DNA from: a virus
DNA: 20,527 nucleotides
Virus record (IMG/VR): IMGVR_UViG_3300025327_000175
Coordinates: 1 to 20,527 of that record
Direction: 5' to 3' (one strand)
Numbering within the stretch: position 1 is the first letter of the stretch; each line of letters opens with the position of its first letter. Of the stretch, positions 2,546 to 12,285 are shown piece after piece. The notes beneath the pieces were generated by a model. That model ran no database searches. It saw nothing but the letters and a program-made list of their open reading frames with translations, and was not told the DNA's origin. Position numbers and translations under genes: made by a program.

Positions 2546-2830
2546 TCATACAAGCGGCAAGCAGTCGCGTTCATCGAACAGGTAGCCGCGCTCAATCAGT
2601 CCGCGCTCCAGGCACATATCGCGGTATTTGCGATGCATTGTCTGAACCTCCTCATGCACTGGGTCTGTAAAACCAGTGGCCGTGGTGTTGGCAATCGGGT
2701 CGCCGAAACGCGCAATCCCTACGCGCCGCCCGATGTCGCGCATCTGTTCGTTAATCGCAGTCCAGTCGAGTTCGACGCCGTTTTGTTTCAGCATCCCGAG
2801 TGCGCCACAGAGTTGGTCGTATGTGCTCAT
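2546..2830 (-). CDS. First gene of the leftward operon (94 aa), unknown function
   Basis: ATG at 2830 has CAGGAG with good spacing. A start 20 codons upstream (2890) is possible but has a poorer site and would overlap the decamer repeats. The protein is soluble and mixed alpha, with segments such as VELDWTAINEQMRDIGRRVG and VQTMHRKYRDMCLERGLIERGYLF. No family recognised. It is promoter-proximal, behind a leader of about 160 bases. The frame continues beyond its TGA into coding-like sequence (see 2429-2545), so this 94-aa form may be a truncated version of a gene of about 130 codons. Confidence 0.55.
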   Translation of the reverse strand: MSTYDQLCGALGMLKQNGVELDWTAINEQMRDIGRRVGIARFGDPIANTTATGFTDPVHEEVQTMHRKYRDMCLERGLIERGYLFDERDCLPLV

Positions 2831-2889
2831 TTCTATCTCCTGCCCCTGTGCCCGAGGCGCGGTGTAGAAGGTGTCTACAGTTCTATTCA

Positions 2890-2947
2890 TTCCCGAAACT
2901 TCCCGAAACGGGATTTTCCGGCCCTCCGGTTTTCCCGAAATTTCCCG
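2890..2947. repeat. TTCCCGAAA decamer repeats
   Basis: TTCCCGAAAC occurs twice in tandem (2890-2899, 2900-2909), again as TTCCCGAAAT at 2932-2941, and partially (TTCCCG) at 2942-2947. A CCCG/CGGG hairpin (2902-2912) is embedded. These lie in the leader of the leftward operon. They could be iteron-like binding sites for a replication protein or regulator. Confidence 0.6.
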
Positions 2948-2973
2948 CCCCCCCTATAAGAGGGGGGCTTTTA
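2947..2973 (+). terminator. Rightward intrinsic terminator
   Basis: A 7-bp GC stem (2947-2953 with 2962-2968, loop 8) is followed by TTTTAT on the plus strand. It would stop rightward readthrough from the replication module, which would otherwise run antisense through the leftward operon into the control region. On the minus strand the stem lies in the leader of the leftward mRNA without a T-run. Confidence 0.6.
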
Positions 2974-2999
2974 TCCCAGCACACTCGCTGTATGATTGC

Positions 3000-3027
3000 A
3001 TTATGCGTCAATCCTCTCATTATGCAA
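3000..3027 (-). promoter_or_regulatory. Leftward sigma70-like promoter with GCATAATG repeats
   Basis: On the minus strand TTGCAT (3027-3022) is separated by 16 bases from CATAAT (3005-3000), facing the leftward operon. Both boxes lie in copies of the same octamer, GCATAATG (plus-strand CATTATGC at 2999-3006 and 3018-3025, 19 bp apart). A repressor recognising this octamer would cover both the -35 and -10 elements. The copy at 2998-3006 is itself a palindrome around a central base. Confidence 0.5.
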
Positions 3028-3260
3028 CTAAATTGTTCTTATAATGCGAGTGGCTAATATTAGATATTGCTGATGGTGTGACGGAATGTGACGACTCCAC
3101 AATACGTTACAGGGTGAGCGATAGTAAGTGTAAATGGCAAAGTGGGCTAAATAATGTTGGCAATGTGGAGTGAACGCGATAAATAGGCGGGAGAGCATTT
3201 TATATATAATTTCTCTAACTGAGTCTCTCTAGGGCCTTTTCTTACTCCACATTGCGACAC

Positions 3261-3288
3261 TTATTTTTCTAACAAATCATGCTACACT
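3261..3288 (+). promoter_or_regulatory. Rightward extended -10 promoter
   Basis: TGCTACACT (3280-3288) is an extended -10 element, with a weak -35 TTATTT (3261-3266) 16 bases before the hexamer. It lies about 30 bases before the ATG at 3319, and one arm of the 12-bp inverted repeat (3244-3255) sits just upstream, placed to act as an operator. Confidence 0.45.
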
Positions 3289-3318
3289 TAAACTTCCTTC
3301 ATCACCAGGAGCGCGATC

Positions 3319-3558
3319 ATGGATGAGCGGATTACACTTTTAAGGCAGTTTGGGCTTCACAATTTCCCGGCGGATACCACGCCAGCCGAATGCACGGAAT
3401 TGTTTGATGCATGGTTAAGCGATCATTACCCGTCGTTCCCAAGCATTACAGCCAAGGCTATAGGGCCGCTGTTAGTTGGGTTAGGGTTCAGGCGTATTGG
3501 CTGGAAGCATGGCCGTGTGAGGCTGTTTAACCCGCATTTTGGGGAGGTTGTAATATGA
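3319..3558 (+). CDS. Small putative DNA-binding protein, copy 1 (79 aa)
   Basis: ATG at 3319 has AGGAG with seven-base spacing. The C-terminal half (residues about 40-72: AKAIGPLLVGLGFRRIGWKH, then RVRLFNPHF) has the look of a small winged-helix domain: a helix ending in LGFRR, then a beta wing and an NP motif. The same pattern recurs in the next gene, and the stretch coding for GFRR is identical over 12 bases in both (GGGTTCAGGCGT at 3484-3495 and 3726-3737), pointing to tandem duplication. Such modules occur at the C-terminus of D5/P4-type phage primases. A DNA-binding role is inferred. The stop overlaps the next start (ATGA). Confidence 0.6.
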   Translation: MDERITLLRQFGLHNFPADTTPAECTELFDAWLSDHYPSFPSITAKAIGPLLVGLGFRRIGWKHGRVRLFNPHFGEVVI

Positions 3559-3851
3559 TGGCGAAAACTGAAGATTTAGTGAAAGAAGTTTGGCGCCTCG
3601 GCCTGGATGCTTACAAGCAGTACAGTAATGCGGATGATCTGCACGAAACGTATTTGGAGCTTCGGAGTGAATACACTCCCAAGGCCAGTTCAAGGGCGCT
3701 GTCTGCAGCCCTCGTCGACTACTTCGGGTTCAGGCGTTTAAGATTCCTCGTTGAACGCAAGACGATCTACTACAACCCCTGGCACCCAGATAGCCCGGAG
3801 AGCAGCGACGATACCAAGCTGATCTACCCAAGCTGGCTTGATAAGGATTGA
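3555..3851 (+). CDS. Small putative DNA-binding protein, copy 2 (98 aa)
   Basis: Starts at ATG 3555 within the stop of copy 1; a second Met follows immediately. The region around residues 40-76 (SSRALSAALVDYFGFRRLRF, then ERKTIYYNPWH) aligns with copy 1 in the helix, the GFRR turn, the wing and the NP motif. The N-terminal 40 residues are a different, acidic-helical segment, and an extra tail (DDTKLIYPSWLDKD) follows the wing. The two products may work as a pair, for example as a heterodimeric regulator or as subunits that replace a primase C-terminal domain. No stronger assignment is possible from sequence alone. Confidence 0.6.
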   Translation: MMAKTEDLVKEVWRLGLDAYKQYSNADDLHETYLELRSEYTPKASSRALSAALVDYFGFRRLRFLVERKTIYYNPWHPDSPESSDDTKLIYPSWLDKD

Positions 3852-3993
3852 TGCGCTGGCCTGTCCTGCAGGGCGTGCCGGCGACGATCATGTTGCCGGC
3901 ACCGGCAAAGTGATGCAGTTGCGCACCAAGTATCATAAGCCCGCGCTAATGTACCCATGCCGCAGCGCACCATTCAGGCCATCATCCCCGCAA

Positions 3994-4008: not shown

Positions 4009-4042
4009 CAGTACGATGCGCGTAAGTCATTGATATGTTACG

Positions 4043-4060
4043 AGTGTTAGTGCTTACACT
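4043..4060. promoter_or_regulatory. 18-bp imperfect palindrome
   Basis: AGTGTTAG and CTTACACT are complementary at 7 of 8 positions around a central TG. It lies immediately before a GCATAATG octamer (4063-4070). The size and symmetry suit a dimeric repressor site. Confidence 0.3.
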
Positions 4061-4155
4061 TCGCATAATGTGTGTTATGTTAAATTAGAGGACGACGATG
4101 CAGATTGATGCAAGTCTTTGATTTCGTTGCGAAACATGCTTTTGTCGCGCATTAT

Positions 4156-4185
4156 GCCGGCAGGGGGGGCGCCGGCAGGGGGGGC
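4156..4185. repeat. Tandem 15-bp repeat GCCGGCAGGGGGGGC x2
   Basis: Two exact head-to-tail copies, 4156-4170 and 4171-4185. Each contains a palindromic GCCGGC and a run of seven G. They lie between a possible short leader ORF and the terminator at 4213-4244. The copy number could vary by slippage. Confidence 0.8.
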
Positions 4186-4212
4186 GCGGAATGCTGGCAC
4201 GAGTGTTTCCTA

Positions 4213-4244
4213 TGGGGATGTCTGTCCCCAATTTTATTTTTTTT
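4213..4244 (+). terminator. Rightward intrinsic terminator before the late genes
   Basis: A perfect 6-bp stem TGGGGA/TCCCCA (4213-4218 with 4225-4230, loop of 6) is followed by ATTTTATTTTTTTT. It would insulate the late genes from the upstream rightward transcript, unless antitermination acts here. Confidence 0.75.
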
Positions 4245-4283
4245 ATAGAATATCCCGTGATAGACATAAGTTATTTTTATCCA

Positions 4284-4311
4284 TTGCAAAGTTAATTTAT
4301 GGGGTTATCAT
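4284..4311 (+). promoter_or_regulatory. Possible late promoter at the terminase start
   Basis: TTGCAA (4284-4289), a 16-base spacer and TATCAT (4306-4311). The expected start point would fall at about 4318, the A of the ATG, giving a nearly leaderless terminase mRNA. The gene lacks a good Shine-Dalgarno sequence, which is consistent with this, but the boxes are only moderate matches. Confidence 0.3.
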
Positions 4312-4314
4312 TCG

Positions 4315-4818
4315 GTGATGGGCGCATTGACTAAGGCGGGTTGGCAGAGGATGGACGTGCTGGTGAGCGAGCATGGAGCGGATGATGTTCTGCACATGGT
4401 TTGCGATCAGGTGGCGAACGGGATAAGCTTGACCGAGATTGGGCGTTCGGAAGGAATTCCTTATACGGTGCTGTGGAAATGGTTGAAGGGTGAGGATTCC
4501 CGCTTTAAGGCATACTCCGATGCTTTGATGGCAAGGGCTGATTCGGAGGCGCATCGGTTGTTGGAGTTGGCGGATAGTGCTAGCCCGGAAGACGTGAATG
4601 TGGTCAAGCTTCGGACGGATGTTCGGAAGTGGCTGGCGGGGAAGTGGGATCGGGATCGATATGGGGACAAGCAGAGTATTGAGGTTACGCGGGTTGATTT
4701 GAGCATGAAGGATTTGCTGGAGGTTAGGGAGAAGCGGTTGTTGGAGATTGTGCCGATTGAGGGGCAGTCTGAACGGGTTGATGATGATAAGTCCAATGAT
4801 GAGGAGTTGGTCATTTGA
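4315..4818 (+). CDS. terS: Terminase small subunit
   Basis: The 167-residue protein has a helix-turn-helix at about residues 38-58 (SLTEIGRSEGIPYTVLWKWL). Next comes a helical region, and then the motif KLRTDVRKWLAGKWDRDRYGDK (about residues 98-119), which is characteristic of a broad family of phage terminase small subunits. It recognises the packaging site and delivers DNA to the large subunit, whose gene follows with a four-base overlap. Start choice is uncertain: GTG 4315 or ATG 4318, neither with a good ribosome-binding site; the ATG may be used leaderlessly. The acidic C-terminus (SERVDDDKSNDEE) may contact the large subunit. Codon use is G-rich (TTG, GGG, CGG), like TerL and unlike the capsid genes. 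Confidence 0.85.
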   Translation: MMGALTKAGWQRMDVLVSEHGADDVLHMVCDQVANGISLTEIGRSEGIPYTVLWKWLKGEDSRFKAYSDALMARADSEAHRLLELADSASPEDVNVVKLRTDVRKWLAGKWDRDRYGDKQSIEVTRVDLSMKDLLEVREKRLLEIVPIEGQSERVDDDKSNDEELVI

Positions 4819-10826: not shown

Positions 10827-11720
10827 ATGTCTGTAAATCTGCCTACTCATTTTGTACAGCAGTACAGTTCCAATATCCAACTTCTCCTCGCGGCACAAGG
10901 GGGTAAATTTACCTCTAAAGTCATGATGGGGAGCCATGTTGGCAAGCAAGCAAGTCCAGTAGATCAGTTCGGTGCAGTCGAAATGCAGTTGGTAACTTCT
11001 CGCTTCGCGCCGAAGCAACGAACTGATGCTCCCACCGACCGCCGTTGGGTTTTCCCGAGCGATTATGACCTGAATCAAATGGTTGATTCGTTTGACAAAC
11101 TCAAGATGATTACCGATGTAAACAGCACTTATGTAGTGAATGCTGTTAAAGCGGCAAATCGTCAAATGGACAGAATCATCATCAACGCCTTTACGAGCAC
11201 TGCAAAAACTGGAGAGAATGGCGGAACTTCAACCATTTTCACAGCAGGCAATGAGGTTGACGTAGCTGTTGGCGGTGCCAACTCGAAGTTGAACGTAGCC
11301 AAACTCAAAGCTGTACGGGAACAGATGGAGAGTCAGTTCGTAGACTTCGAGACAGAAGAAGTATATTGCGGCTTGACAGCCGCCGACAATGCCTCGCTTC
11401 TGAACGAAATTCAGATTATCTCATCCGACTTCAATGGCGGCGATGCTGTTCTAAAGGATGGGCGCGTTGTCTCGTTCTTGGGTTTCACGTTCTGCCAGTC
11501 ACAACTGATAGAACAATTGCTGGCTGGAACGAATGAGGTTACTTTGCCGGTGTGGTGCAAGTCGGGGATGTACATTGGTCTGTGGGAAGATGTGCAGAAC
11601 GATGTTCATCCGCGCCATGACATTCAGGGCGATCCTTGGGAAATTACCACTACAATGTCTGCTGGTGCCACACGCCTTGAAGAAAACAAGGTGTATGCGA
11701 TTGAGAGCTACCGGGCGTGA
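10827..11720 (+). CDS. Major capsid protein
   Basis: The ATG at 10827 with AGGAG at seven-base spacing is chosen over an upstream in-frame start at 10791. The 297-residue protein matches the BPP-1-type capsid family: an N-terminal region THFVQQYSSNIQLLLAAQGG, the block MGSHVGKQASPVDQFGAV (about 34-51) and TDAPTDRRWVFPSDYDL (about 66-82), then the helical spine TYVVNAVKAANRQMDRIII. The fold is expected to be HK97-like, forming the T=7 shell. The strong ribosome-binding site fits high expression. It is preceded by a gap of about 100 bases without a clear promoter. Confidence 0.92.
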   Translation: MSVNLPTHFVQQYSSNIQLLLAAQGGKFTSKVMMGSHVGKQASPVDQFGAVEMQLVTSRFAPKQRTDAPTDRRWVFPSDYDLNQMVDSFDKLKMITDVNSTYVVNAVKAANRQMDRIIINAFTSTAKTGENGGTSTIFTAGNEVDVAVGGANSKLNVAKLKAVREQMESQFVDFETEEVYCGLTAADNASLLNEIQIISSDFNGGDAVLKDGRVVSFLGFTFCQSQLIEQLLAGTNEVTLPVWCKSGMYIGLWEDVQNDVHPRHDIQGDPWEITTTMSAGATRLEENKVYAIESYRA

Positions 11721-11779
11721 TAACTTCTAGGGATATTCATTGGTTAGCAGGATTCCTAGATGGCGAAAATTATCTTTGA
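11717..11779 (+). pseudogene. Remnant of a LAGLIDADG homing endonuclease gene
   Basis: A 20-codon frame begins at GTG 11717, overlapping the capsid stop (GTGA), and ends at TGA 11777-11779. It contains DIHWLAGFLDGE (11732-11767), which is the signature first motif of LAGLIDADG homing endonucleases (the usual form is D-x-x-W-L-A-G-F-x-D-G-E-G). The normal protein would continue for more than 100 residues; here it stops three codons later, just before the ribosome-binding site of the next gene. A 6-bp inverted repeat (TCTAGG/CCTAGA, 11726-11731 and 11755-11760) spans it. I read this as a deletion scar of a free-standing endonuclease gene. Confidence 0.6.
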
Positions 11780-11793
11780 AAGGAGAATGAAAA

Positions 11794-12285
11794 ATGGCTA
11801 CTGAAGACCTTAAATCCGGCTTCATTACGAATCGTGATGCTACTCCGGCTGTATCTACTACATCCAATCCTGGCCAAGTGTTCCGCGCCTACGGCAAGGT
11901 TGAATGTGCCGGCGGCGATCTGGCATCGACCTACCGCTTCTGCGAAGTCCCATCCAATGCCAAGATGGTTCGCTGCTTCTATTCATGCGACGATCTTGGT
12001 ACTAGCGTTACGATGAACGTCGGTCTGTACCAGACTACTGGAAACGGTGGTGCTGTTGTTGATCAAGACTTCTTCGCTTCGGATCTGGACGTGGCAACTG
12101 CTGCTGTCGGTATCACCGAAATCACCTTTGAGCGTGGAGCTACGCTCATTGATGAGGCCGAGGAGCCGCTGTGGGAACGTCTTGGTTTGTCTGCGGACTC
12201 GCAGCGCAACTATGATGTTGTTGCTGTTTCGGCCGGTGCCGCTGCAACTGGCACGATGGCAGTTTGGGTAGAATACATCATCTAA
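11794..12285 (+). CDS. Capsid cement protein (Bbp16-type)
   Basis: 163 residues, strong ribosome-binding site (AAGGAG). The sequence is beta-rich throughout: VFRAYGKVECAGGDLASTYR, then VTMNVGLYQTTGNGGAVVDQ, VGITEITFERGAT and TGTMAVWVEYII. This pattern and its place right after the major capsid gene match the Bbp16 cement protein of BPP-1, which adopts a jelly-roll fold and clamps capsomers. The N-terminal extended arm (about residues 1-30) may insert between capsomers. It is followed by a strong hairpin (12289-12315) that may protect this abundant message. Confidence 0.8.
   Translation: MATEDLKSGFITNRDATPAVSTTSNPGQVFRAYGKVECAGGDLASTYRFCEVPSNAKMVRCFYSCDDLGTSVTMNVGLYQTTGNGGAVVDQDFFASDLDVATAAVGITEITFERGATLIDEAEEPLWERLGLSADSQRNYDVVAVSAGAAATGTMAVWVEYII

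Follow-up and report, generated by a model that had tools for sequence, protein, structure and literature searches.

The window analyzed here is a 20,527-nucleotide stretch of viral DNA from a phage that is known only from metagenomes. It contains a junction between the gene for the major capsid protein and a gene for a cement-like protein, and at this junction lies a reading frame of 20 codons that very probably derives from a homing endonuclease gene (HEG). The features of the junction are the following:

10827 to 11720, + strand: major capsid protein gene, 297 amino acids and stop TGA (phrog_3437, major head protein, E 1.3e-55), upstream of the junction

11717 to 11779, + strand: 20-codon stub assigned to a LAGLIDADG HEG from its translation, its profile score, and homologous intact genes in the same place; its GTG start overlaps the capsid stop, and it ends in TGA

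11732 to 11767, + strand: first LAGLIDADG motif, DIHWLAGFLDGE, in which six synonymous codons are the only differences from the related locus L017

11768 to 11779, + strand: AATTATCTTTGA, the likely deletion junction, inferred from alignments in which the motif is followed by G in most of the family but by NYL and stop in the window

11780 to 11793, + strand: leader of the cement-like gene (AAAGGAGAATGAAAAATGG) with ribosome-binding site AAGGAG, to which a near-identical AAAGGAGAATGATATGG corresponds after the intact endonuclease in L163

11794 to 12285, + strand: gene for a cement-like (possibly decoration) protein of 163 amino acids, directly 3' of the capsid gene, downstream of the junction and kept in relatives

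The 20-codon stub and its neighbors

The first-pass annotation had described a short GTG-initiated frame that overlaps the capsid stop and encodes the first LAGLIDADG motif, and the translation and a family profile score of 19.4 bits bear this out. The GTG at 11717 overlaps the capsid TGA at 11718 to 11720, positions 11717 to 11776 translate as VITSRDIHWLAGFLDGENYL, and a TGA stop follows at 11777 to 11779. The same annotation placed the frame in a 73-base gap, which is indeed the distance between the capsid stop and the ATG of the cement-like gene at 11794. Its estimate that about 20 codons are left holds as well, but its wording of the frame's end needs amendment: codon 17 is the last of the motif (DGE), and NYL makes up three further codons before the stop. 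The motif carries no disabling change and stands where a LAGLIDADG domain would begin. The complete alpha-beta-beta-alpha-beta-beta-alpha domain is absent, and, since only 20 codons are present in the window, the stub is a remnant rather than a functional member of the family. Three more IMG/VR contigs from this population (L001-L003), which share 99.98-100% identity with the window, match it at every letter of the junction; with four contigs in agreement, the stub cannot be put down to an error in one assembly.

Relatives of the capsid protein are found in pelagiphages and other (podovirus-like) Caudoviricetes. The putative 163-amino-acid protein has no PHROG or Pfam match and a poor structure model (pLDDT 51); its place after the capsid gene suggests a cement or decoration role. 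The capsid and cement frames are complete in the window, in L017, and in L163, so the arrangement is not that of an intron- or intein-encoded endonuclease, for which the host gene would be interrupted and spliced. The capsid C terminus reads AIESYRA and stop in the window and NIESYRA and stop in L163. A TGA stop of the capsid gene was considered as a mark of occupancy and is suggestive only (TGA in 3/84 empty junctions, and also in the window and L163). Elsewhere in the window, the - strand has an open reading frame of 187 amino acids (1170-1733), whose C-terminal half is rich in Ala and Tyr and consists of tandem repeats of the AGCAGC type. Its score against Imm5-like immunity families exceeds the curated cut-off but may be inflated by the low-complexity repeat.

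Intact endonuclease genes at the same junction in relatives

In relatives, intact LAGLIDADG genes of about 150-163 codons lie exactly between the capsid gene and the next (cement-like) gene. One of them, in L017 (L008/L017, IMGVR_UViG_3300020147_000007), was found by a scan with the back-translated motif; its open reading frame is complete, with 151 codons from the ATG at L017:4019 or 157 from an upstream GTG, begins MGGVTAKDIHWLAGFLDGEGYF, and is flanked by a capsid gene (43% identity) and a cement homologue (37% identity). The stub and the start of this endonuclease are 73.7% identical over 19 amino acids, and their 12 motif codons differ by six synonymous and no nonsynonymous changes, which marks the sequence as one that was being translated as a gene while it diverged. 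A scan by alignment to the capsid protein yielded 80 loci, and further scans added L190/L268, L271-L275, and L340. L163 has an intact endonuclease open reading frame of 163 codons at the capsid/cement junction, with the same gene in L180 and L181, and in L190/L268, L271-L275, and L340 an intact endonuclease gene directly follows the capsid gene. Comparison of junctions, which had been proposed as the check on the original reading, thus finds a full LAGLIDADG gene with matching first residues in L017, L163, L190/L268, L271, and L340; the outcome named as contradicting that reading, in which relatives would share the short frame but never have an intact endonuclease, was not observed.

Most of the intact endonuclease genes begin at the capsid stop or no more than about 90 bases from it, and their ends abut the leader of the gene that follows. 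Seventeen of 50 distinct members of the endonuclease family adjoin a capsid gene of this superfamily. The family also adjoins more distant capsid genes, among them those of L018/L019, L020/L021, L022, L193, L194, and L200, as well as L202, L204, L207, L212, L219, L222, and L223. In most of these cases, the endonuclease starts no more than about 50 bases from the capsid stop and runs up to the following gene. In L019, a second endonuclease gene (HNH_3, E 1.8e-13; 2595-3023) lies just upstream of the capsid gene, which is thereby bracketed by two unrelated endonucleases.

With a profile of 47 related endonucleases from which the window was left out, the stub frame scored 19.4 bits, compared with 5.4 bits for the next best frame of the whole window and a maximum of 13.2 bits when the whole window was dinucleotide-shuffled 300 times. 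Scores of the junctions alone were cleanly separated: intact relatives reached 28-37 bits and the window population 19.4, while empty junctions stayed at or below 3.8, so that no further stubs were found in other relatives. That an untranslated spacer reads like a LAGLIDADG motif by chance is nevertheless a possibility to be weighed, because the stub is short, a Pfam scan of its 20-mer gave no match, and tblastn of the 20-mer against phages returned only stretches in mycobacteriophage terminases at E ~8. Distant blastn of the junction against phages likewise gave no match. We consider coincidence extremely unlikely: apart from the shuffle control, the stub coincides exactly with the intact genes in position and frame, its likeness to them reaches upstream of the motif (ITSRDIHW and VTAKDIHW), and the motif has diverged from that of L017 by synonymous changes only. 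The intact genes at the same junction refute this explanation in practice.

Occupied, empty, and decayed junctions

Among 84 distinct junctions of close relatives (the window included), 79 are empty, four hold an intact gene, and one holds the stub. One insertion site therefore has both occupied and empty alleles, as is also seen in a single close pair of loci:

L268, 2001-4894, and L270, 2001-4894: near-isogenic pair, recognized by flank identity; one member has the endonuclease and the other lacks it, and a few bases beside it differ as well

Between the occupied L268 and the empty L270, identity is 98.4% across 2.9 kb of upstream sequence and 99.3% across 1.2 kb that begins at the cement start codon and runs downstream. 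The differences are confined to a short exchanged tract that takes in the endonuclease, the leader, and a few codons at the end of the capsid gene. Flanks that are 98-99% identical indicate that the site changed hands recently there. As far as sequence comparison can tell, the pattern is consistent with what would be expected of recent homing with short co-conversion, although loss by recombination would give the same picture. The cement-like gene of L270 is a tandem duplicate (2940-3443 and 3459-3959; two related open reading frames of 166-167 amino acids), and L268 has the same internal DNA repeat.

In the capsid tree, L163 is nested among empty relatives and the neighbors of the window branch are all empty, so the presence of the gene is sporadic. 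No endonuclease is annotated at the junction of Pelagibacter phage HTVC100P. An intact copy was not found in the window population or its closest relatives and, with the nearest relatives in the capsid tree empty, we infer both gain and loss on the window branch. Coexisting alleles such as those of L268 and L270 could also mean that a sub-population of the window phage still carries the full gene and that the contig is a deletion variant or a collapsed assembly. This is very unlikely, as the four contigs of the population are the same at every letter of the junction and a collapse would require a repeat at the breakpoints.

Very probably, a free-standing LAGLIDADG HEG had once invaded the capsid/cement junction, and the stub is what is left of its 5' end. 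Direct support comes from its homology, its site, the series of intact, empty, and stub junctions, the recent exchange in a relative, and the predicted LAGLIDADG fold of an intact homologue. The first-pass proposal that a free-standing homing endonuclease once occupied the junction is accordingly upheld by the intact genes at that place in relatives, by the empty sites, and by the L268/L270 pair. In the history that we infer, which involves endonuclease activity, homing, a cut site, and a single deletion step, a free-standing HEG would have entered between the capsid and cement genes. Since such genes start near the capsid stop and end against the next leader, the HEG would have been added to the late operon with neither neighbor broken. 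By the known homing cycle, its product would cleave the unoccupied junction of another phage infecting the same cell, and the gene would be copied in by repair. A deletion of about 400 bases in the window lineage may later have taken away the gene from codon 17-18 onward, as far as the leader of the cement-like gene. What was left would be the start codon with the first motif and, beside the ribosome-binding site, a stop, so that the operon would have stayed compact.

The earlier description of the endonuclease as "precisely removed" is too strong, since about 50 bases of its 5' end remain in the window, whereas true empty sites have no endonuclease bases. Homology of the stub ends at DGE (11767), and the stop beyond it, previously taken as a new one that formed part of the footprint, is better read as part of either the leader native to the next gene or the old gene's end. 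We considered YL and stop as the old C terminus of the endonuclease: L017 ends alike (KVSL and stop; AAAGTATCTCTC TGA GGAGAA), but the empty L100 has TTGAAAGGA before its start codon. Given both resemblances, the last 12 bases before AAGGAG may be either the old gene end or native leader. Fitting the right flank of the window to the empty flanks gave no clear best match.

A retained function of the stub, in site immunity or translational coupling, is possible. As a translated mini-ORF derived from the HEG, the stub might carry ribosomes from the capsid stop, through the GTGA overlap, to the cement ribosome-binding site; its start overlaps the capsid stop, its stop lies directly before AAGGAG, and its motif has no disabling change. 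However, 79 of the 84 close junctions manage with nothing inserted, mostly with shorter gaps (median, 22), a recent deletion explains the preservation equally well, and the population contigs show no variation at the junction, and we regard this role as quite unlikely. The stub might instead persist because, by interrupting the recognition site, it shields the phage against renewed invasion at almost no cost. Intact genes enter exactly at the junction, which implies that a leftover insert would split a target spanning it, but the cut site could lie within the capsid gene, and such protection seems rather unlikely. Selection for both effects, in which the stub would act as a "vaccination scar" that keeps the homing site split, confers immunity without the endonuclease, and couples ribosomes from capsid to cement, is similarly doubtful.

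The enzyme family and known homing elements

The AlphaFold2 model of the intact L163 homologue (mean pLDDT 82) has a helix, two strands, a helix, two strands, two helices, and a low-confidence tail. Its best Foldseek matches in the PDB are I-CvuI, I-CreI, and I-MsoI (E 8.5e-6 to 5e-5; probability 1.00; TM-scores 0.43-0.50), so that an I-CreI-type fold is predicted from the model. Sequence profiles are weaker: Pfam LAGLIDADG_1 matches at E 0.0013, below its curated cut-off, and PHROG 5046, "HNH endonuclease," at E 4e-11. The C-terminal HCxxGHEYTPENTY...CxxC segment of the intact proteins resembles the tails of HNH proteins (PHROGs 1492 and 826). In L020/L021, an endonuclease open reading frame (4010-4816) has three copies of an HCxxGHxxxPEN...CxxC-like segment, an expanded putative DNA-binding tail. 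We found no report of an assay of any enzyme of this capsid-junction family.

The intact capsid-junction HEGs (L017, L163, L190/L268, L271, and L340; PHROG 5046) share with the stub the junction, the position of the start relative to the capsid stop, and the first motif; they retain the whole gene with its C-terminal segment, whereas the window keeps 20 codons only. Among the best phage matches of the family (26-29% identity) is gp14 of LittleE, a LAGLIDADG endonuclease in a capsid-gene intron of a cluster J mycobacteriophage (PMC3706429). It is a related protein at a capsid gene, likewise combining a LAGLIDADG domain with an HNH-type C terminus (PMC3706429), but it is intact and lies on the opposite strand in a spliced intron. 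HEGs near capsid genes have been described (PMC10448857), and in T4 the free-standing segD lies between genes 23 and 24 and segF between soc and 56 (PMC2988022). These, too, are HEGs between conserved structural or essential genes, but they are of the GIY-YIG rather than the LAGLIDADG type. In the open-access literature, we found no description of this capsid-junction LAGLIDADG family or of so short a stub.

A single homing site beside a capsid gene is seen here empty, occupied, and decayed, with one near-isogenic occupied/empty pair, which allows the gain and loss of free-standing phage HEGs to be followed at base resolution. Comparison of junctions across relatives makes recognizable 20-codon fossils that ordinary gene calling would miss. 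Loss of HEG sequence by deletion has precedents: I-TevIII in nrdB of T4 has been inactivated in this way, with an intact orthologue in phage RB3 (PMC2988022), and an intron of phage JSE contains a truncated HEG, such truncations making traces hard to detect (PMC2993671). Those elements are intron encoded, whereas the gene at the capsid/cement junction was probably free-standing and has been reduced to about 50 bases. HEG decay is thus a known process, of which the stub is a new example: a molecular fossil of a known element rather than a new kind of system.
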